41,499 bases of DNA from assembly GCA_017552715.1 (NCBI GenBank), contig JAFZOW010000024.1:1-41499 (forward strand). The letters are read 5' to 3'. The notes under the pieces are model-generated. The model was not told where the DNA came from, searched no databases, and worked only from the letters and a program-made list of their open reading frames with translations. Positions 1,622 through 14,043 of this stretch are shown in pieces (positions within the stretch are counted from its first letter, which is position 1; the number at the start of each line of letters is the position of its first letter). This DNA comes from Lachnospiraceae bacterium (GTDB lineage Bacteria; Bacillota; Clostridia; Lachnospirales; Lachnospiraceae). Position numbers and translations under genes: made by a program.

Positions 1622-2251
1622 ATGAACGAAAACATCCGTAAAAGAAACGAACTGCTTGCTCAGAAAGTGATCAAAGGCCTTGAAAGCCGTAATATGAGCG
1701 GTATCTATGCCGTGGATAAGGAGGAGGCCCTGAAGAAGGCTCTGGAGCTCATCCCCGAAGGAAGCACCATCGGTATGGGGGGCTGCATGAGCGCCCGGGA
1801 GATCGGCCTTGTGGATGAACTGAAGAACGGAAACTATGACTTTATCGACCGGGATCTGGAGACGGATAAGCGCGCGGCCATGCTTAAGACTTATGACGCC
1901 GACATATTCTTATCCAGTGCCAACGCTCTTACGGAAGACGGCGTGATCATCAATATCGACGGCAATTCCAACCGGGTCAGTGCCATTGCACAGGGTCCTA
2001 AAAAGGTGATCTTCATCGTGGGAATGAACAAGGTCTGCAGCGATGTGGACGGCGCCATGAAGCGTGCCCGCAATGTTGCCGCCCCCATTAACGCCCAGCG
2101 TTTCGGCCTTTCCACTCCCTGTGCAAAGACCGGCAGCTGCTTTAACTGCAAATCTCCCGATACCATCTGCTGCCAGTTCCTGATCACCCGCTTTTCCAGA
2201 CATGAAGGACGTATCACGGTGATCCTGGTAAATGATGATCTGGGATTCTGA
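1622..2251 (+). CDS. LUD-domain protein (LutC/DUF162 type)
   Basis: This is a 209-residue member of the LUD (lactate utilisation, DUF162) family. Family marks are the N-terminal 'IPEGSTIGMGGCMSAREIG' stretch, the central 'SSANALTEDGVIINIDGNSNRVSA' region in which the GxxxxxDGxGNR-like loop is kept, and a cysteine-rich end (CAKTGSCFNCKSPDTICC) common in clostridial stand-alone members. Homologues LutB/LutC take part in lactate oxidation, but single-domain clostridial proteins like this one have no settled reaction, and there is no lutA or lutB partner here. A GTG at 1613 is in frame, but the GAGGTGAG ribosome site overlaps it, so ATG 1622 is the better start. The next gene begins 28 bases after the stop, so the two may be cotranscribed. 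Confidence 0.85.
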   Translation: MNENIRKRNELLAQKVIKGLESRNMSGIYAVDKEEALKKALELIPEGSTIGMGGCMSAREIGLVDELKNGNYDFIDRDLETDKRAAMLKTYDADIFLSSANALTEDGVIINIDGNSNRVSAIAQGPKKVIFIVGMNKVCSDVDGAMKRARNVAAPINAQRFGLSTPCAKTGSCFNCKSPDTICCQFLITRFSRHEGRITVILVNDDLGF

Positions 2252-2279
2252 TGTTCCCTTATCCTTATGGAGGCAAGCT

Positions 2280-3953
2280 ATGAACGAGCAGGCGCAGACC
2301 GAACTGGACAAATCCAAACTGGAAGGCAGCTGGTATGAGCAGCGTGCGAACGGAGCCGTGATCACTATCTCCGGAGATGTTATCCGGGTAGAAAAGGACG
2401 GCAAAGTCACCGAAAAAGGCTTTGGCGTCAAAAAACGTGAAAACAGCAGCTATGAATGGGATATCTTCGGGGGAGATGAGCTCTTTCCTATGGACCATCT
2501 CGTATATGTGGATTTAGGAGACAACTTCGAAGGCTTTATCACAACACGAATGCTCTTTGTGGTCATGGATATGAGCTACTCTCCGAGGGAATTTAAGCGC
2601 ACGCCCTATGAAGCCCCGAAATACGGTGAGATCCATATCAATACCAACAAAAAAGCGATCAAATGGTTCCAGGACTATCGGGTGCGGAAGCTGGTTCTCA
2701 AACTGCAGGAGCCACAGCGGGATAGCGGCATGATGGCTCCCCAGCCGCCGTATGCAGGATATTATACCTACGAGATCGAGCGCACAGCGGATGAGGGCGG
2801 CGTGATCCGGGCCACGATACAGAACGGCCACGGTTCGCTGTCCTTCAGCGAAGCATTCAAGGTCCCCGAAGTGAAGATGAGTCCGAAGGAGATGAACGAT
2901 CTGGCCCTGCTCATCGCCAACAGCAAGCTTGACCAGCTGAACGGCCTGGATTGCTGGCAGGACGGAGTCCCTTCCGGTTCCGAGAGTTTTGATCTGGCCA
3001 TAGAGTTTTATAAAGAGTCGTATCACGCCCGGGCCAATCATATCTTTGTCCCGGAGGACTGGAAAAGGGACGGGCGAAAGCTGCACCGCTTTATCTTCAA
3101 GCTTCTGGTGATCGCCGGGCTGGATTTCGGCAGGAACGAATTTCACCGTCAGACTCCCATGCTCCGCATCGGTTCCGGACCGGAGGATCCGCCCGGTTAC
3201 AGTGTGGACAGGGACTGCCGCCACGAGGAACTGGTCGGAGAGGCCTACGACTATAATGCCAACTGGACCGGCTGGGAGCTTAAATATCAGGGAGATGTAC
3301 CTCCGGCTTTGAAGGAAGCACTGGATGCCCTTCATGAGAGAGTGAGCCGGGAGGACGAGGAACGCAGCCGTTTTCTCTACGATGAACTGGCAAAGATCCC
3401 GGAGGAAGCCAGGGCAGATCTGCGCGGAACGGTCTGGGCGTCGCAGCTCTTTGACATCTTCCGTATCCACGAGGATAAGCTTTTCTTTTACTTCTGGCTG
3501 CTGCGGGAAGAAAAATGCGATATACATCTGGATTGCATAAATACCGAGAAAGATCCCCGGGGAGGATACCGGACCTGCTGCATGGATACAAAAGACGGGC
3601 ATCTGATGTGCGCGGCAGAATTTTATACGGATACGGAGAAACTCATCGATCTGCTTTGTGCCGACCTGCTGAAACGCCATACTTCGGAAGAGATGCAGGC
3701 AAAGATCAAAAGCGCCGCCTACCGCGAGAAGCTCGCCAGATGGCTGGAAACCCCGGAAACGGAAGGGGGCATGGGCTTCGATATCCGCCGGGATGATATG
3801 GAATTCCGACTTTTCTTTGATCTGGATGAGGAGCGCGAGCCCTGGATCACGGAGCTGAGGCTTCAATATGAAGATACTCAGGATATATTGAATCCCGCTT
3901 ATGCAAAAGAATGGGGTGTGCCCCCGGCAGACAGCCTGCGGGGCTGGTATTAA
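2280..3953 (+). CDS. Hypothetical 557-residue protein upstream of the YAGP peptide
   Basis: I do not recognise a named family. There is no signal peptide or membrane segment, so it is probably cytoplasmic. The first 100 residues look like a small beta-barrel ('LEGSWYEQRANGAVITISGD'), followed by a beta-rich middle with the region 'LNGLDCWQDGVPSGSESFDL' near residues 225-245, and an acidic, mainly helical C-terminal half from about 340. ATG 2280 is preferred over an in-frame ATG at 2232 that overlaps the LUD gene, because GGAGG stands at 2269-2273 and the protein family-like sequence begins there. Only 13 bases separate it from the YAGP-repeat protein, which is followed in turn by the radical SAM gene. 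It could be a partner or substrate of that pair, but this is inference from position only. Confidence 0.8.
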   Translation: MNEQAQTELDKSKLEGSWYEQRANGAVITISGDVIRVEKDGKVTEKGFGVKKRENSSYEWDIFGGDELFPMDHLVYVDLGDNFEGFITTRMLFVVMDMSYSPREFKRTPYEAPKYGEIHINTNKKAIKWFQDYRVRKLVLKLQEPQRDSGMMAPQPPYAGYYTYEIERTADEGGVIRATIQNGHGSLSFSEAFKVPEVKMSPKEMNDLALLIANSKLDQLNGLDCWQDGVPSGSESFDLAIEFYKESYHARANHIFVPEDWKRDGRKLHRFIFKLLVIAGLDFGRNEFHRQTPMLRIGSGPEDPPGYSVDRDCRHEELVGEAYDYNANWTGWELKYQGDVPPALKEALDALHERVSREDEERSRFLYDELAKIPEEARADLRGTVWASQLFDIFRIHEDKLFFYFWLLREEKCDIHLDCINTEKDPRGGYRTCCMDTKDGHLMCAAEFYTDTEKLIDLLCADLLKRHTSEEMQAKIKSAAYREKLARWLETPETEGGMGFDIRRDDMEFRLFFDLDEEREPWITELRLQYEDTQDILNPAYAKEWGVPPADSLRGWY

Positions 3954-3966
3954 GGAGGACAGGATC

Positions 3967-4458
3967 ATGACGGAAGAGGAAAAGAATATTAAGATCGCAG
4001 AAATGAAAACGGTCTATGCCGGACCTTCACCTCTTGGACCGCAGCTGGGGGCTGTTTATGCCGGTCCCGAACAGATGAAACCGCAGATGGGCTTTGTTTA
4101 TGCCGGGCCTGAACAGATGAACCGTCAATATATGATGGCGGTCTATGCCGGACCGGCCCAGATGAATCCCCAGATGATGATGATGGCTTATGCAGGGCCC
4201 GGTAATCCGCAGGTCGGCATAGGTCTGATGATCCCACCGCAGCAGGAGCAGAAGAAAGCTTCCGAAAAAGCCGGAGATGTATACTGTTTCTGCACATCCT
4301 GCGGCGCGCGCTGCGGGGCTTTCAAATTCTGCCCGGAATGCGGTACTCCGCTGAAAGATGTTAAACTTTACAGGGATTGTGCCTGCGGTACGAGAATGCA
4401 GGCAGAGTTCCGTTTCTGCCCGGAATGCGGCAAAAAAGTCGAGACGGAAGAAGCATGA
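3967..4458 (+). CDS. YAGP-repeat peptide with C-terminal double zinc ribbon; candidate radical SAM substrate
   Basis: This 163-residue protein has two parts. Residues 1-90 carry five repeats of the form V-Y-A-G-P-x-Q-M-x-P-Q-M, with tyrosines at 17, 31, 45, 60 and 75, a regular period of 14-15 residues; the last copy is shortened. Residues 105-163 form two zinc-ribbon-like units, with C107/C109, C112, C116, C122-x2-C125 and then C138-x-C140, C151-x2-C154. The start ATG 3967 follows AAGGAGGA. The stop overlaps the start of the radical SAM gene (ATGA), so the two are translationally coupled. The codons of the repeats differ between copies while the residues stay the same, which argues for selection on the peptide. 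A multi-core precursor peptide or a modified scaffold protein is the favoured reading. An alternative is an ordinary zinc-ribbon adaptor with a Pro/Met-rich linker. No known precursor family was recognised. Confidence 0.85.
   Translation: MTEEEKNIKIAEMKTVYAGPSPLGPQLGAVYAGPEQMKPQMGFVYAGPEQMNRQYMMAVYAGPAQMNPQMMMMAYAGPGNPQVGIGLMIPPQQEQKKASEKAGDVYCFCTSCGARCGAFKFCPECGTPLKDVKLYRDCACGTRMQAEFRFCPECGKKVETEEA
4012..4224 (+). repeat. Five YAGP coding repeats
   Basis: The repeat units encode TVYAGPSPLGPQLG, AVYAGPEQMKPQMG, FVYAGPEQMNRQYMM, AVYAGPAQMNPQMMM and MAYAGPGNPQVG. The Y-A-G-P core is invariant in all five, Q-M-x-P-Q-M is kept in the middle ones, and the first and last copies are the most divergent. 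Synonymous differences (tat gcc ggt, tat gcc ggg, tat gca ggg) show the copies are not recent duplicates. Confidence 0.9.
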
Positions 4459-5465
4459 ACTACAGGCTGCGTAATTGTGTATGGGAAGTAACTCTCTCCT
4501 GCTGTTTTTCCTGCCGTTACTGCGGTTCCGGAGGCGGTAAAGCCAGGGAGAACGAGCTTTCCACCGAGGAATGCCTGGCTCTGGCGGATGAACTGGCAGA
4601 GCTGGGCTGCCGCCGCATCTCCATGATTGGCGGGGAGGTTTTCTGCCGCCCGGACTGGAAGCTCATTTCGGAGCGGGTGATACGAAACGGTATACTGCTC
4701 TGTATCATCAGCAACGGTTATATGATCGATACAACGCTGGCAGAAGAACTTAAGGCACTCGGTATAGAATCCCTGGCACTTTCCATTGACGGCCCCCAGG
4801 CAATACACGACCGATACCGACAGGATGGCAGCTTTGCGAAAGCTAAGCGGGCCCTTGGAGTACTGGCCAACGCCGGCGTGGATACCTCCGTGATCAGCAC
4901 CCTCAATTCCGAGAATGTCCATACTCTGGACGAGCTGTATTCTTTTTTGTTGGATTATCCCATTTTTGCCTGGCAGCTCCAGGCCTGCAATCCCATGGGT
5001 AATGCAGCCCGTCAGGGAGTGGATCACCGTTTTGATCCCCATACGGTCATCCGTTTTGTGGAGGAACACGGGGATGCGCCCTTTGCTCTGGGGATAGCGG
5101 ATAATATAGGCTATTTTACCCCCGGTGAGGGAAGCCTCAGGGGCACACGGGACGGAAAAAGCTGTTATATCGGCTGCCAGGCCGGGATCAGTGCCATCGG
5201 TATCGACAGCATCGGAAATATCCGGGGCTGTGAATCCATGTATGACGAACGTTTTATAGAGGGAAATATCCGGCAGCGGAGCCTCAGGGAGATCTGGGAA
5301 GATGAGGATGCCTTTTCCTATAACCGGCGCTTTGACACCACGCTGCTTACGGGGAAATGCTCCGGCTGCCCGGAAGGAGAGCGCTGCAGGGGCGGCTGCC
5401 GTTCCTATGCTTATTTTTCCGGCTGCGGACTTTATGAAGCACCGGCCTGCGCCAGGGTATTATAA
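4455..5465 (+). CDS. Radical SAM/SPASM enzyme, probable peptide maturase
   Basis: This is a 336-residue radical SAM enzyme with a SPASM domain. The [4Fe-4S]-SAM motif is C16-x3-C20-x2-C23, and GGE at 59-61 is the SAM-binding loop. The C-terminal part fits the seven-cysteine SPASM pattern: C241-x12-G-x4-C259, then C302-x2-C305-x5-C311-x3-C315 and a final cysteine at 324 or 332, which would hold two auxiliary clusters. Families with this architecture (anSME, PqqE, sactipeptide and ranthipeptide maturases, MftC) act on proteins or ribosomal peptides. The SAM motif starts only 15 residues from the N-terminus, so there is no N-terminal PqqD-like recognition domain. ATG 4455 overlaps the TGA of the YAGP-repeat gene, making that protein the obvious candidate substrate. 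The modification made cannot be predicted. The longer in-frame reading from 4377 only overlaps the upstream gene. Confidence 0.9.
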   Translation: MNYRLRNCVWEVTLSCCFSCRYCGSGGGKARENELSTEECLALADELAELGCRRISMIGGEVFCRPDWKLISERVIRNGILLCIISNGYMIDTTLAEELKALGIESLALSIDGPQAIHDRYRQDGSFAKAKRALGVLANAGVDTSVISTLNSENVHTLDELYSFLLDYPIFAWQLQACNPMGNAARQGVDHRFDPHTVIRFVEEHGDAPFALGIADNIGYFTPGEGSLRGTRDGKSCYIGCQAGISAIGIDSIGNIRGCESMYDERFIEGNIRQRSLREIWEDEDAFSYNRRFDTTLLTGKCSGCPEGERCRGGCRSYAYFSGCGLYEAPACARVL

Positions 5466-5523: not shown

Positions 5524-5606
5524 TGCCGGCAGCGGGACTTGAACCCGCACGTGGTTGCCCACAACAGATTTTGAGTCTGCCTCGTCTGCCATTCCGACAC
5601 GCCGGC
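5524..5606 (-). tRNA. tRNA-Leu (anticodon CAA)
   Basis: On the - strand the acceptor stem GCCGGCG (5606-5600) pairs with TGCCGGC (5531-5525, one G-U pair), with discriminator A at 5524. The anticodon stem-loop reads GCAGA-CTCAAAA-TCTGT, giving anticodon CAA for the Leu codon TTG. A long variable arm (GTGGGCAACCAC) marks the class II fold of tRNA-Leu, and GGGTTCAAGTCCC forms the T-arm. The CCA end is not encoded (TCA follows). It is the only gene seen on the - strand. Confidence 0.95.
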
Positions 5607-9049: not shown

Positions 9050-9071
9050 CCAAAATGTATATATTTGGAGG
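9050..9071 (+). promoter_or_regulatory. Hairpin touching the ribosome binding site
   Basis: CCAAA (9050-9054) can pair with TTTGG (9064-9068), the latter running straight into the GGAGGT ribosome site of the next gene. A second small hairpin, GCCT-GAAAGC-AGGC (9036-9049), stacks just before it. The pairing would cover the first two G of the Shine-Dalgarno site. It is weak (five pairs, mostly A-T) and might be chance. Confidence 0.3.
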
Positions 9072-9078
9072 TTCGCTT

Positions 9079-11631
9079 ATGATGCGACGTTCGATCATAC
9101 GCTTTACAGCTGTCATATTGTCTCTCTTCATGGTCATTTCCGGACCGCTGTCCCTGTATGCCCGGGCAGAGGATGAAGTGATACTGATCGATGAAGAGGA
9201 AACGGAAGAGCCCCTTCCCGAAGCCGGCGAAGAGGCGGCATATGCACCGCTCCGTATGGAAGACATCGTTTTCGGGGAAGAGCATGTGATCGGTGACACT
9301 CCTTCCTTTGAGGAGGATGCCGCAAACGTTCCCGAAGCAGCCGAAGCCATACGTAACAACAAGATCTGGGTAGCGGGACTCGCCAAGTATTATCCCTATA
9401 CCGGCAGTGAAGTGCGCCCGGAGGTCAGGGTTTATCTGGGAAGGAAGCTTCTTACTCCGGATGTGGATTATTCCTTAAGTTATGCAAACAATATCAGTGT
9501 TTCTTCCGAAACAGAGCCTGCCGTTCTGAAGATCCACGGTAAAGGCAATATCAGCGGAAGCGCTTCCCTTAATTTCGGAATACTTTCCGAGAACTTTACT
9601 CTTGGACGTACACCTTTAAGCAGTGTACAGATCGAAATGGTACAGGGTAAGCTCAGCTATGACGGAACGGAACAGACCCCCGAATGGCTGCTGACTGATC
9701 CTGCAGGTTTTGTTCTTACTCCGGATGATTATGATATCTTCGGTGACGTGTCTGCGACCCTTCCCGGCAAATATACCGTTATCTTCAAGGGAAAAGGCTT
9801 GTACAGCGGTTCAAGCAGCTTCAGCTACAAGATAGTGGGCAAGAAGACCCTGACAGAAGAGAACCTGGAAGCGGTGATCAATGGCGGCGAGACGGTTTCC
9901 TACAACTCCGCAGGAGCAAAACCCGAAGTTGAGCTTTCCTGTGACGGCGAACCCATGCAGGAGGGCAGCGATTATATCCTTACTTATAAAAGAAATAAAA
10001 AGGCGGGAGATGATGCTTATATCATCGTACGCGGCAGAGGACGTTTCAAAGGGACCGTAAAGCTTCCTTTTACCATCGCTCCCTGTGATTTTGCCACACT
10101 GGATCTTCTTATAACAGACCGGGTGGCTTCCCCGGTGAAACCCGAGGACTACAAGAATGCGGAGCTGATCTTCCGCACTTCTGAAGGTGAACTGCAGACA
10201 TTGAAAGAGGGGCGGGATTATCTGACGGATTTTTCCGTTATTGACGGTGATCCGCAGCAGCCCGGAGCACTTATATCGGTCATCATCACTCCTCAGGGAG
10301 AAAACTATTGCGGGAATGATCTTTACGGTACTTATCAGATCATCAGCGAGGAGGCGGATTTCTCCCGTTTTGAACCCGAAGTGGATAAGGATTATGTCTG
10401 GACCGGAGGAGAGATCATCCCTTCCCACAAACATATTCGTGTTTCGGTCTCCGATGATGTGATCACGGATTACCGCGTGGTTGCCTGCTATAATAATGTG
10501 GAGCTGGGGAAGGCGGAACTGCTGCTGGCCGGCACCGAGCCTTACTGCGGTTACTTGAGCACCGAATTCTCCATCGTGCCCGCTTCCGTGGGATCACTCT
10601 GGGGGATGGAGGAACGTTACATACAGATCCCCGAGCCTTCGGCGGAAAAGCCCAGGCAGGCTTTTGATATCGAAGTGCCCGAGCGCTATCTGGATGTGCA
10701 GGAACTCGGAGCTCTTCCCAATGACGGCATAGACGATACGGAAGCCATCAACGAGGCTATCGTTATGGCTGCCGGAAATCCGGATTATGACAGTACCGTA
10801 TATATCCCGGCGGGCATTTATGATGTGAGCGTCGGAGACAGGGATGCCGTGATCTATATCAGTCATTATTTCATCGGAGACAAGGGTGTGAATCTTGTTA
10901 TGGACGGTAATGCCATATTAAAGCTGGCACCCAGCAACCGCACCGAATATCATCTGATCTTTATGAACGCTTATAATATATCTGTTACCGGCGGTCAGCT
11001 GGTGGGGGACAAGTGGTATCATGACAATGCAGAAGTGCCTGACGGCATCATCACCGGAGGTAACGGTATAACTATAGACCGCGGACATTGCACCGTGGAC
11101 CGCGTACAGATCTATGATAACTGGTGCGACGGTATCTATATCAATGACGGCGGTAACCGGGACGAGAACGGGGAGCATTACTGCACGGATATACAGATCC
11201 GGGGCTGTGATATTTCCTATAATAACCGCAACAACATTTCCGTGATCCGAGGGGATAATATCCTGGTGGAGGATTGTGACATCTATGGGGCCGGACCTGC
11301 AGCACCCGCAGCCGGTGTGGATATCGAACCGGATCTTGCGGCGGATGCTCCCGAAGAAAAATTTGACAAGATGCTCTGCTACGATATCACCTTCCGTAAC
11401 TGCAATATCGCTGCTCTGGAAGATAAGCCTGCGGAAGGCGAAGGCAAATGGGTACGCTATTTCGCTTTCGAGATCAACGGTTATTACCGGCGTGAAGTGG
11501 CCAGAGCGATCTATCTGGAAAACTGCCGTATTTATGGTGATTTCCTCTATGGCAGCTGTCTGAAAGAGGAATTGGGGCTCTACGATACCGCTATCATCGG
11601 GAAGGTCTATGAACCCAGTTTCAGCGAATAG
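9079..11631 (+). CDS. Secreted right-handed beta-helix protein with Ig-like repeats (paralogue 1)
   Basis: This 850-residue exported protein has a signal peptide (MMRRSIIRFTAVILSLFMVI, probable cleavage near ARA at about 30). After an acidic linker come about four beta-sandwich repeats of the kind common in Lachnospiraceae surface proteins ('YPYTG..V.P.VRVYLG..LL....DY...Y.NN'), spanning about residues 90-510. From about 535 a pectate-lyase-3-like start (DVQELGALPNDGIDDTEAIN) leads into a right-handed parallel beta-helix with GIYINDGG, NNRNNISVIRGDN and GVDIEPD, as seen in carbohydrate lyases, epimerases and phage tail spikes. A polysaccharide substrate is likely but unproven, and no sortase or SLH anchor is visible. 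ATG 9079 follows GGAGGT; the ATG at 9055 lies upstream of that site and would place hydrophilic residues before the signal peptide. Confidence 0.85.
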   Translation: MMRRSIIRFTAVILSLFMVISGPLSLYARAEDEVILIDEEETEEPLPEAGEEAAYAPLRMEDIVFGEEHVIGDTPSFEEDAANVPEAAEAIRNNKIWVAGLAKYYPYTGSEVRPEVRVYLGRKLLTPDVDYSLSYANNISVSSETEPAVLKIHGKGNISGSASLNFGILSENFTLGRTPLSSVQIEMVQGKLSYDGTEQTPEWLLTDPAGFVLTPDDYDIFGDVSATLPGKYTVIFKGKGLYSGSSSFSYKIVGKKTLTEENLEAVINGGETVSYNSAGAKPEVELSCDGEPMQEGSDYILTYKRNKKAGDDAYIIVRGRGRFKGTVKLPFTIAPCDFATLDLLITDRVASPVKPEDYKNAELIFRTSEGELQTLKEGRDYLTDFSVIDGDPQQPGALISVIITPQGENYCGNDLYGTYQIISEEADFSRFEPEVDKDYVWTGGEIIPSHKHIRVSVSDDVITDYRVVACYNNVELGKAELLLAGTEPYCGYLSTEFSIVPASVGSLWGMEERYIQIPEPSAEKPRQAFDIEVPERYLDVQELGALPNDGIDDTEAINEAIVMAAGNPDYDSTVYIPAGIYDVSVGDRDAVIYISHYFIGDKGVNLVMDGNAILKLAPSNRTEYHLIFMNAYNISVTGGQLVGDKWYHDNAEVPDGIITGGNGITIDRGHCTVDRVQIYDNWCDGIYINDGGNRDENGEHYCTDIQIRGCDISYNNRNNISVIRGDNILVEDCDIYGAGPAAPAAGVDIEPDLAADAPEEKFDKMLCYDITFRNCNIAALEDKPAEGEGKWVRYFAFEINGYYRREVARAIYLENCRIYGDFLYGSCLKEELGLYDTAIIGKVYEPSFSE

Positions 11632-11649
11632 AGCGGGGAAAGGAAAAGG

Positions 11650-14043
11650 ATGAAAAAACACTTCCGTTGTCTTACAGCTTTTCTGTTAAGCCTTGTGATG
11701 CTTCTTTCGGATGCCGGGGCTTTCTTTTCCCATGCCGGAGATGATGCCGCAGACGAAGCATACTTAAACGATACGGAAGAGTCGGCTGAAGATACGGAAA
11801 TCGTTGCCGAAGAGGATGCGGAAGCGTTTGCGGAAGACAAGGCAGAGACTTCCCGGGATGAGGCTTTGCCTGAAGAAGCTGTGGATGAAGGCAGTTCTGC
11901 TGCCGAGCCTGCCGAAATACCCGGGGAAGAGACGGCTGAGGAAGATGAAGCTCTTGCCATGGAAGAAGAGGAGGGGCTGGATCCCAGGGATGAGGAAGAA
12001 GCACTTAAGGAAGCGGATGCCGCGGATAACGGCCTGCTCTGGGTAGCCGGCCTGCTGGAAGTTTATCCTTATACCGGAAAAGCCGTTAAACCCAGGGTAC
12101 GTGTATATCTCGGGAAAAGGATGCTAACGGAGAATGTGGATTATACCGTTAGTTACAGCAATAATAAAAAGGCCAGTACCAATTCCAAGCCCGCTTCCCT
12201 CACCATCAAAGGGAAGGGGAATTTCAGCGGGAGCAAAAAGATCAAATTCCTGATCGTTAAGGATGCGGATATCAGCGTTTCCGAGGATCAGCTTATACCG
12301 GCGGAAGAAAAGATCGAACTGAACGAAAGCCGCATGGAGATCGTGATCGGTGGCGGACAGCCTGTCGCTTACAGAAAGGGCGGCGCCAAGCCCGAGGTAA
12401 ATGTGAGCTTCAACGGGGTAAAGCTTTGGGAAGGTGCCGATTATACACTGAAGTATTCTTCTAACAAGAAGGTCGGCAGCGGCGCAAGTGTAACCATCAA
12501 GGGAAAGGGCAGATATAAAGGCAGTGTCACCCGTTCCTTCGAGATCGTAAAAGCCGATGTGAGCGAGCTGATGATCACCGCTTCCGATAAGGTATATTCC
12601 GACAAAGCGGATGCCTACAAAAAGACGAAGCTCTGTTTTTATGATGAAAGCCTTACGGATCAGAAGCTGAAAGCCGGTAAGGACTACTCATTGGAATTTA
12701 CCGCTCCGGATACGGATACACCTGCCGTGGGCAGCGTGATCACGCTTAAACTTGACGGCACGGGGGATAACTATACCGGCAGTGTAATGCTTCAATACCG
12801 TATCATAGAAAAAGGCAGTGATATCTCCAAAGCCAAGGTCAAGGTGAACGGAGGCAAGTCCTATCCCTGGACCGGAGAGTATATCGTACCTGCTCCGGGA
12901 GAGATCCTTATCAAACTTTCCGGAACTGAAGTGAGGGATTACGATATCGTGTACTGTACCGCAAACCGTTCCAAAGGGACTGCACGTATGCTCCTGAAAG
13001 GAAAAGGCTCTTACGGCGGATATAAACCGGTGAAATACAAGGTGGCCGCAGCCAAGCTCAGCACCCTCTGGGGAATGAAGGAACGCAATCCCGTACTCCC
13101 CAAGAAGGAAAAGCATATCCCGGTACCCGATAAATATCTATACGGCCCGGATCTGGGCATCATCCCGGATGACGGGCAGGAGGATACGGACGCCATCAAC
13201 GATGCGCTTTTGCTGGCTGCAGCAGATGAGGAACATGATCATACCCTTTATCTGCCGGCAGGGGTCTATGATCTTCCTTTCGGCTACAACAACAGGGCCA
13301 TATGCATATCAAGTGATAACGTAAAGCTGGTGATGGACGGGAAAGCCGTACTGAATGTGGGAGCCTGCTCCGCCGGTTCGTATCAGGTGATGCTGATCAA
13401 CGGGAATAATGTTACGGTGCGGGGCGGACAGATCCTGGGAGAACGGAGCAGACACAGCGGCAGCTCCGGTGCCGAAGGTCACGGAGTATACATCGCCGGA
13501 CAGCATGTACGCCTCGAAGATATGCAGATCTGGGATAACTGGGGCGATGGTGTTTACATCAATGATAACAAGCGGAATCAGGGTAGTTCCATGGAAACAG
13601 GGTCGGATGTGGTAATAAAGGGCTGCATCATCTCCAACAACCGGCGCAGCAATGTTTCCGTGGTGCGCGGAGAGTGGATCGTATTTGACGACTGCGATAT
13701 CAGCGGAGCCCACAGCTCGCCGCCTTCCGCAGGGATCAATATCGAGCCGGATATAAGCGGATCCGAAAACGATTCGGACTGGGAGAAGAAAGTCTGCCAC
13801 AACATCACTTTCAAAAACTGCCGGATCTCTGCTTATAAGTCGCACCGGGAATGGGACGGGACCTACACCCGTTATTACGCCTTCCAGATCAATGCTTACT
13901 ATACCAAAGCCATTGCACGGGCTATACGTCTGGAAAACTGCACGGTCAAAGGGGATATCTGTATCGGAAGCTGCAAAGAGGATCAGTTCATCCTTAAGGA
14001 TACAACGGTCACGGGCAACATCGAAGGACCGTACTTCAGATGA
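11650..14043 (+). CDS. Secreted right-handed beta-helix protein with Ig-like repeats (paralogue 2)
   Basis: This 797-residue protein is a tandem paralogue of the preceding one, starting 18 bases after its stop. It has a signal peptide (MKKHFRCLTAFLLSLVMLLS), then a very acidic low-complexity stretch at about residues 30-125 with almost only Glu, Asp and Ala. Beta-sandwich repeats like those of paralogue 1 follow, ending in 'STLWGMKER'. The pectate-lyase-3-like helix runs from about 495 to the end (LGIIPDDGQEDTDAINDAL, GVYINDNK, NNRRSNVSVVRGEW, GINIEPD). The order of domains is the same as in paralogue 1, but the acidic linker is longer and the repeats are more lysine-rich. Both probably act on, or bind, the same class of polysaccharide at the cell surface. 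The catalytic residues were not identified. Confidence 0.85.
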   Translation: MKKHFRCLTAFLLSLVMLLSDAGAFFSHAGDDAADEAYLNDTEESAEDTEIVAEEDAEAFAEDKAETSRDEALPEEAVDEGSSAAEPAEIPGEETAEEDEALAMEEEEGLDPRDEEEALKEADAADNGLLWVAGLLEVYPYTGKAVKPRVRVYLGKRMLTENVDYTVSYSNNKKASTNSKPASLTIKGKGNFSGSKKIKFLIVKDADISVSEDQLIPAEEKIELNESRMEIVIGGGQPVAYRKGGAKPEVNVSFNGVKLWEGADYTLKYSSNKKVGSGASVTIKGKGRYKGSVTRSFEIVKADVSELMITASDKVYSDKADAYKKTKLCFYDESLTDQKLKAGKDYSLEFTAPDTDTPAVGSVITLKLDGTGDNYTGSVMLQYRIIEKGSDISKAKVKVNGGKSYPWTGEYIVPAPGEILIKLSGTEVRDYDIVYCTANRSKGTARMLLKGKGSYGGYKPVKYKVAAAKLSTLWGMKERNPVLPKKEKHIPVPDKYLYGPDLGIIPDDGQEDTDAINDALLLAAADEEHDHTLYLPAGVYDLPFGYNNRAICISSDNVKLVMDGKAVLNVGACSAGSYQVMLINGNNVTVRGGQILGERSRHSGSSGAEGHGVYIAGQHVRLEDMQIWDNWGDGVYINDNKRNQGSSMETGSDVVIKGCIISNNRRSNVSVVRGEWIVFDDCDISGAHSSPPSAGINIEPDISGSENDSDWEKKVCHNITFKNCRISAYKSHREWDGTYTRYYAFQINAYYTKAIARAIRLENCTVKGDICIGSCKEDQFILKDTTVTGNIEGPYFR

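Follow-up and report, generated by a model that had tools for sequence, protein, structure and literature searches.

What does a radical enzyme do when its gene is translationally coupled to that of a small zinc protein bearing five copies of a tyrosine motif? The question is raised by contig JAFZOW010000024.1 of a rumen-type gut bacterium of the Lachnospiraceae (GCA_017552715.1), whose 41,499 nucleotides were analysed as a whole (hereafter the window) and form contig 46 of a 3.43-Mb genome in 134 contigs. On the forward strand, the gene of a 163-residue YAGP protein, the carrier and presumed substrate (3967..4458, ATG to TGA, delimited as an open reading frame (ORF) and by its homologues), shares an ATGA overlap with the gene of a 336-residue radical S-adenosylmethionine (SAM) enzyme with a SPASM domain, the presumed maturase (4455..5465). 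We propose, as a reading that sequence comparisons make reasonably probable, that the two genes constitute a splicease-type protein-modification system acting on the carrier repeats. The radical enzyme probably excises parts of tyrosine residues from the repeat-bearing zinc protein, by what seems to be a variation on an uncommon, already known splicing chemistry of proteins, directed at resident proteins rather than at small antibiotics.

The carrier, the enzyme and their co-occurrence

The carrier contains VYAGP at 4012..4026 (Tyr17), 4054..4068 (Tyr31), 4096..4110 (Tyr45) and 4141..4155 (Tyr60) and AYAGP at 4186..4200 (Tyr75), with Tyr-to-Tyr spacings of 14, 14, 15 and 15 residues. Shuffling its 163 residues 20,000 times gave on average 0.008 and at most two YAGP, against the five observed. 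The first-pass annotation of this DNA had described a longer repeat, VYAGPxQMxPQM, which is exact in only two of the five copies; valine precedes YAGP in four of them (alanine in the last) and xQM follows it in three, whereas the core YAGP holds in all five. Its observation that the motif is kept while the codons vary was borne out, as third codon positions differ between the window copies around a constant Tyr-Ala-Gly-Pro, and YAGP is conserved in relatives. Residues 1-100 hold no cysteine, and a double zinc ribbon occupies approximately residues 106-158 (4282..4440), where Pfam reports Zn_Ribbon_1 at residues 140-158 (E 3.4e-7) and DZR at residues 109-155 with 26.2 bits, slightly below the cut-off of 27.3.

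The enzyme matches the Pfam families Radical_SAM (E 1.7e-24) and SPASM (E 1.3e-6). The CX3CX2C motif of the SAM-binding cluster (C16, C20, C23; 4500..4523) is followed by a SPASM segment with seven cysteines (5175..5450) in the pattern C241-x17-C259, C302-x2-C305-x5-C311-x3-C315 and C332. All of these cysteines are invariant across 24 homologues except C332, which is nearly so. The pair of a five-site protein and a seven-cysteine SPASM enzyme joined by ATGA is hence as real as originally annotated. An AlphaFold model computed with 24 alignment rows (mean predicted local distance difference score 74.7, predicted template-modelling score 0.80) has PqqE, SkfB and SuiB as its top Foldseek matches, a comparison that confirms the predicted fold only; among 13 Protein Data Bank sequences matched to the enzyme, none is a splicease by name. 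At the C-terminus (window 5175-5465), 67 of 84 rows of the YAGP clade end in a [LMF]YE[AS]PxC-type sequence (Y-E-x-P-x-C) that resembles the enzyme's own substrate site and is found in none of ten cousin and TIGR04103/TIGR03913 tails compared. This ending could be a pseudo-substrate, or it could reflect chance around the last SPASM cysteine.

We followed the pair through 144 genomes of relatives, 397 genomes of the family and a named collection in which 198 enzyme relatives were found and the best 80 kept. These sets are not independent, since some of the 80 loci lie on the same contigs as the relatives set and the carriers of two loci (L135 and L146) are identical. Enzyme orthologues at E < 1e-120 occur in 13 of the 144 genomes, including that of the window (14 loci; 55-76% identity outside the window), and no further match is better than 6e-67. 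YAGP proteins were likewise found in 13 genomes, with 32 loci fetched from 66 listed carrier matches, and 12 of these genomes hold an orthologous enzyme; YAGP homologues are therefore not common in its absence, and the proposal escapes the refutation that frequent unpaired homologues had been said to bring. Conversely, 12 of the 13 enzyme genomes hold a YAGP protein, and in the remaining one, G050, a kinase-FHA protein next to the enzyme carries VYAAP. At the DNA level, the pattern MxxVYAGP matches 12 of the 144 genomes, 10 of the 13 with the enzyme and 2 of the 131 without, one of the latter two being a lectin-like chance hit; the same pattern read backwards matches eight genomes, once each.

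In the family set, the enzyme was detected at 1e-80 in 14 of 397 genomes, of which 11 were newly met, and all 11 encode a Y-x-[G/A/P]-P protein close by. Gene order varies to some extent: the carrier of G460 lies downstream of the enzyme and overlaps it, and that of G193 is convergent on the opposite strand. The best 80 of the 198 named relatives are led by Lachnospiraceae metagenome-assembled genomes (MAGs). At 75 of these 80 loci an ORF with Y-x-[GAP]-P ends within -40 to 300 nt of the enzyme start, or 76 if L176 is counted, where VYASP occurs on a zinc ribbon adjoining the enzyme. Measured to the first aligned enzyme codon, the gap is at most 30 nt in 65 of the 75 and the genes overlap in 28. 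One of the four loci lacking a counted carrier (L171) begins at a contig edge with the end of a zinc ribbon visible; the other three (L106, L107 and L169) are taken up below. No enzyme relative was found in phages at 1e-15, and none of eight matching plasmid records falls within the YAGP clade.

The tight MxxVYAGP pattern returned a single carrier per genome. A second carrier in G001 (L243, G001:C257) surfaced as a weak protein-search match; its 220-residue open frame encodes VYGGP, AYAGP and VYAGP as well as a zinc ribbon, and lies apart from the enzyme on a small contig. The tight pattern therefore misses carriers, and second copies were sought in this genome alone. A looser pattern, GYNTAYGCNGGNCCN, was discarded as a carrier finder because it performed no better than its control.

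The conserved site and the proteins that bear it

Which part of the carrier is conserved? In 75 carriers [VAL]Yx[GA]P occurs 277 times, compared with a mean of 1.8 and a maximum of 8 in 300 shuffles. At least two sites are present in 65 of the 75 carriers and in none of 595 other ORFs called at those loci, and at least one in 73 of the 75 versus 2 of the 595; the looser Y-x-[GAP]-P used for counting adjacency occurs in 31 of the 595. The carriers hold one to nine sites each. We scored 276 distinct site windows, finding Met (145) or Ile (46) at position -4, Val (220), Ala (30) or Leu (18) at -1, Ala (229), Met (17), Gly (11) or Asn (7) at +1, and Gly (239) or Ala (34) at +2, where, as at +3, the search expression limits the choice. 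With Tyr left unfixed, 203 of 205 [VALI]-X-AGP sequences have Tyr, and with Pro left unfixed 203 of 205 [VALI]YAG-X sequences have Pro, in ORFs that had been picked for a motif. The part kept in relatives is the core [VA]YAGP, often as MxxVYAGP. Since the pair is widespread and YAGP is its conserved part, modification of the repeats by the radical SAM enzyme is the best reading, and we infer that the repeats are its substrate.

Tyr and Pro at i and i+3 form a near-invariant pair, which may hint at a C-C or C-O crosslink from the Tyr ring or beta carbon to a neighbour (Pro at +3 or the preceding residue), closing a small ring in each repeat. SPASM enzymes do make aromatic crosslinks, as in triceptides (PMC11002830), and Aro-x-x-Asn, an aromatic motif of four residues, is a suggested site of cyclophane formation (PMC9062424). 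However, a three-residue cyclophane can form only if its third residue has a side chain. Among 298 [VALITCM]-Y-x-x-P sites that residue is Gly in 248 and Ala in 34, and in all five window sites it is Gly, which lacks the beta carbon used in triceptides; the initial judgement that such cyclophanes do not fit agrees with these counts. Described crosslinking families also score lower for the window enzyme (WgkB 123 bits, DynA 67 bits), and cousin peptides of the DUF1843 type, which have no Pro at +3, keep X-Y-[G/A/M]. We regard a crosslink as improbable. The lack of cysteine in the first 100 residues likewise leaves nothing for the core crosslink of a sactipeptide or ranthipeptide, as had been noted, even though Cys stands at -2 in 34 of the 276 relatives' sites.

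Outside the sites the carriers vary. The double zinc ribbon was matched by 54 of 76 carriers (the 75 and that of the window), WXG100 by three (the identical L135 and L146, and L150), and an rRNA adenine dimethylase (L127) and a cobyrinate-synthase domain (L105) by one each; the G024 carrier has, by eye, a flavodoxin-like N-terminal half. If the repeats were instead a binding or localisation motif, the enzyme would modify the zinc-ribbon part or a third protein. Linear repeats beside zinc ribbons can presumably serve as interaction motifs, and some carriers contain further YPxN/YPxR motifs. Yet the YAGP-type motif is what the zinc-ribbon, WXG100, kinase-FHA and fusion carriers share, and no third gene family is conserved around the 80 loci, so that we consider a mere binding role very unlikely. 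The search for a third gene returned as its next cluster an ABC-transporter-like protein at 10 of the 80 loci, on both sides and strands; apart from carriers no gene family is common to more than 10 loci, and no downstream ORF cluster occurs at more than three.

Several individual carriers deserve mention. The WXG100 carriers (L135:2462-3010, L146:4351-4899, L150:969-1412), proteins of the type VII secretion type, end in a tail with a single site, MTLYAAP or MLYGAP, directly before the radical SAM gene. An FHA-domain protein kinase (L087:8108-9385, reverse strand) with TTVYAAPGE between both domains adjoins the radical SAM gene, and FHA, kinase, macrodomain or WXG100 surroundings occur at L087, L167 and L176. 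YAGP or YAAP tails stand in frame with a cobyrinate synthase (L105:2916-4988), an rRNA dimethylase (L127:3759-4970) and a flavin-reductase-like domain (L026:685-1827); these may be genuine fusions or errors in the MAGs. Carriers such as L136, L137 and L174 have a second short motif (GKKYPDRA, EYPANHAEE), often near the N-terminus, that the window carrier lacks and that is perhaps an enzyme-docking motif; a permissive form, YPx[NSGQARH], matches 62 of the 75 carriers, its chance level not having been estimated.

Kinship of the enzyme with spliceases

What chemistry might such an enzyme perform? Among 67 NCBIfam matches of the window enzyme, TIGR04103 ranks first (216 bits) and TIGR03913 second (177 bits, not reaching its cut-off of 591.75), the next family scoring 133 bits; the same two families lead for two divergent members of the YAGP clade. 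We take TIGR04103 to correspond to IPR026482, the PlpX splicease family. PlpX belongs to IPR026482, partners the truncated RiPP recognition element (RRE) protein PlpY (RiPP, ribosomally synthesised and post-translationally modified peptide), and excises tyramine at Xaa-Tyr-Gly (PMC11002830). A Nostoc plasmid enzyme scoring 853 bits, above the TIGR04103 cut-off, is preceded by a Nif11 precursor ending ALYGLPPELF and followed by a 71-residue protein placed like PlpY. In our trees the YAGP clade, the TIGR04103/TIGR03913 enzymes and a Bacillota cousin clade stand apart from TIGR04133-like enzymes (100/100) and, in a tree with MftC, apart from MftC (93/87). The TIGR04133-like label comes from a scan of L049 (276 bits, under the cut-off of 425), from clustering with L049 for L050, L062 and L207, and from annotation for L220. 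The motif W-Q-x-Q..P-M-G-N is present in 77 of 84 YAGP-clade rows, the Nostoc enzyme and all six cousins, and [I/V]-G-Y-[Y/F] in 83 of 84 rows and all ten relatives, whereas MftC and five TIGR04133-type rows have neither. Of five cousins scanned, L046, L048, L211 and L217 have TIGR04103 first and L047 has TIGR03913 first. The window enzyme is kin to TIGR04103-type enzymes whose neighbours carry X-Y-G-x-P.

The mycofactocin enzyme MftC, whose Val-Tyr target we assume to be the C-terminal position of its precursor, is more distant. Its family gives 133 bits, and MftC differs in the terminal Val-Tyr, in coming with MftB and in having neither the W-Q-x-Q nor the I-G-Y motif. The window carrier ends in ETEEA rather than Val-Tyr, and no third gene is conserved. 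Action on Val-Tyr by a SPASM enzyme is itself described for MftC (PMC8326336).

Several cousin enzymes have comparable sites in neighbouring proteins. A chagasin-I42 carrier at L235 (275-1285; I42 E 6e-12) contains LKYGVP, LKYGIP, VEYGIP, LLYGVP and VVYGVP, and another at L215 (9243-10190, reverse strand; I42 E 4e-9) contains seven KYAAP besides MYMPP, YFAP and YMAP. The L235 enzyme is 61% identical to the L213 enzyme, which adjoins the L215 carrier; close relatives thus use either Y-G or Y-A on one scaffold, the clearest such swap. These systems are alike in placing multi-site carriers directly before a cousin-clade enzyme; they differ in the cysteine-protease-inhibitor scaffold and in longer enzyme open frames (514 and 534 residues). 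Other cousin neighbours carry KYGYP repeats (L241 and L103, neither with an I42 match), PLYGIEP on peptides with a GG-type leader recognised by eye (L239, L240), TAYGIARP (L214), and LYAIRP and LYAVSP (L101), and the L102 peptide is rich in YG but shows no clean site. The GDL-motif/DUF1843 systems of TIGR03913, the second-best family, show LYGG, PYGV and MYMA in Azospirillum and LYAA, MYAA and PYGA in Aureibacter, i.e., X-Y-[G/A/M] near the N-terminus in an L, P or M context in five of six peptides and PYG likewise in the sixth. They differ in their 55-65-residue peptides, present as three copies in each of two loci, and in enzymes of 474 and 518 residues; Pfam finds no DUF1843 in the window carrier, which has zinc ribbons instead. 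Relatives hence interchange Y-G, Y-A and Y-M at the same site, and together with the best-scoring family this leaves the earlier view that the Y-A-G motif sets the pair apart from spliceases without support. Its companion statement, that no named family describes the pair, is in line with what Pfam and NCBIfam return, although related enzymes of known chemistry exist.

The PlpXY tag GGPIRPLYGLPI has the X-Y-G-x-P layout (PLYGLP; PMC10533398, Table 1). Taken with the cousins' sites, X-Y-A-G-P can most simply be read as the X-Y-G-x-P site in which Ala replaces Gly. Like the PlpXY spliceotides, the window system combines a SPASM radical SAM enzyme of the same branch, for which theirs is the best NCBIfam family, with precursors that can hold several sites, an aliphatic residue before Tyr and an X-Y-[small]-x-P layout. 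Unlike them, the window carrier has no Nif11 or nitrile-hydratase leader, and the carriers are zinc-ribbon, WXG100 or kinase-FHA proteins; leader-free action has been described for the PlpXY system as well (PMC10533398). The same source cites a catalogue of 939 predicted spliceases by Scott et al. 2022. The literature searched, which did not extend to that catalogue, to Richter et al. 2024 or to Morinaka et al. 2018, contained no description of a YAGP/radical SAM pair, and we do not claim its absence from print.

A number of findings weigh against a splicease-type system. The TIGR04103 score of 216 bits is far under the cut-off of 725, which no enzyme in 398 genomes of the phylum reaches. The window has X-Y-A-G-P in all five sites instead of X-Y-G, Gly occupies +1 in only 11 of the 276 relatives' sites, and no PlpY-like protein was matched by tblastn at E 1 near the 80 enzymes, with one Nostoc query, although a very diverged partner may exist elsewhere. 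W-Q-x-Q is missing from two TIGR03913 rows and from the Tropicibacter enzyme L222, which falls beside the Nostoc enzyme and in whose neighbours no site was found. Outgroups are few, and the trees give no firm order for the three clades: an approximately unbiased (AU) test yields p 0.122 for the alternative of YAGP plus cousins, and another tree shows a trichotomy. Clear carriers are wanting beside cousins at L217 (Agathobacter) and at three of seven loci (L236, L237, L238). As for co-occurrence, the 100% complete genome G019 has a YAGP protein and no orthologous enzyme, the top hit of the enzyme profile there (134.8 bits) grouping with TIGR04133-like enzymes; carrier and enzyme lie on different contigs in G021 and G025 (loci L106 and L107); and L169 shows no carrier in its 11 kb. 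A further AU test (p 0.034) was badly posed, as L222 was left outside the tested group into which it falls, and was not used.

An enzyme of this branch whose sites differ at +1, and for which no PlpY was found, would also suit another splicease-like reaction on tyrosine, namely loss of the side chain (leaving Gly or a dehydro residue in place of Tyr), oxidative cleavage of the backbone or a splice that stops midway. The exchange of YG for YA between close cousins on I42 scaffolds argues for one chemistry, and we hold such a reaction to be improbable. The cassette stays below the family cut-off and departs from the type in Gly at +1 and in PlpY, yet we expect splicease-like activity from it. 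More tentatively, and with lower confidence than for the splicease-type assignment itself, it may be a clostridial system of its own, in which a PlpY-free enzyme would carry out at Y-A-G-P a backbone reaction that is new and directed by tyrosine, either the splicing out of tyramine at X-Y-A or some undescribed rearrangement akin to it. Resident proteins rather than small secreted peptides, be they zinc-ribbon scaffolds, an FHA-kinase, WXG100 proteins or enzyme fusions, would then bear one to nine sites as a portable tag, possibly with more than one carrier per enzyme.

Proposed reaction, product and surrounding genes

How would splicing proceed, and to what end? Translational coupling would deliver carrier and enzyme together, and the SPASM enzyme would recognise each [M/I]-x-x-[V/A/L]-Y-A-G-P site without a leader or RRE. 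Each site would lose a tyramine equivalent and retain a ketoamide, up to five in the window carrier; the hallmark of PlpXY spliceotides is a loss of 135.076 Da per site with an alpha-keto-beta-amino product. No transporter, exporter or protease is conserved near the enzyme at the 80 loci (flanks of at most 5 kb; elsewhere in the genomes these were not sought), including the protease and exporter of a classical RiPP, and the product is therefore presumably the whole modified protein. Of the original proposal of a RiPP or protein-modification system, the modification stands as the best reading, and a RiPP in the usual sense, with leader removal and export, is unsupported. The product would remain intracellular, a zinc-ribbon scaffold whose tail bears multiple electrophiles.

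Protease inhibition has been reported for spliced peptides (PMC10373908), which, with the I42 cousins, suggests covalent capture of a protease or similar nucleophile. By this analogy the modified carrier probably traps a protease or other nucleophile covalently and reversibly, with the zinc ribbons as its targeting part, and this role is the weakest step of the proposal. If the proposal is true, radical enzymes of rumen and gut Clostridia also splice backbones; they do so without PlpY, tolerate Ala after Tyr and act on resident proteins with several unrelated folds. The five-to-eight-residue site would then be a compact, genetically encoded handle for ketoamides, several per protein, and a new question would be why anaerobes keep proteins with many electrophilic backbone groups.

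In the window, the carrier gene is preceded by a Shine-Dalgarno-like AAGGAGG (3952..3958, forward strand). An upstream ORF (2232-3953, 573 residues) was considered as a third cassette member and rejected, since it matches only copies of the window itself and none of the other fetched loci; its last 558 residues match no Pfam or NCBIfam family, and its stop codon touches the ribosome-binding site of the carrier. Just past the enzyme gene, a tRNA-Leu(CAA) on the reverse strand (5524..5606) marks the cassette boundary. Further downstream (9055-14043), a tandem of two large proteins, both with right-handed beta-helix/pectate-lyase-like domains, is likely a carbohydrate-active pair.

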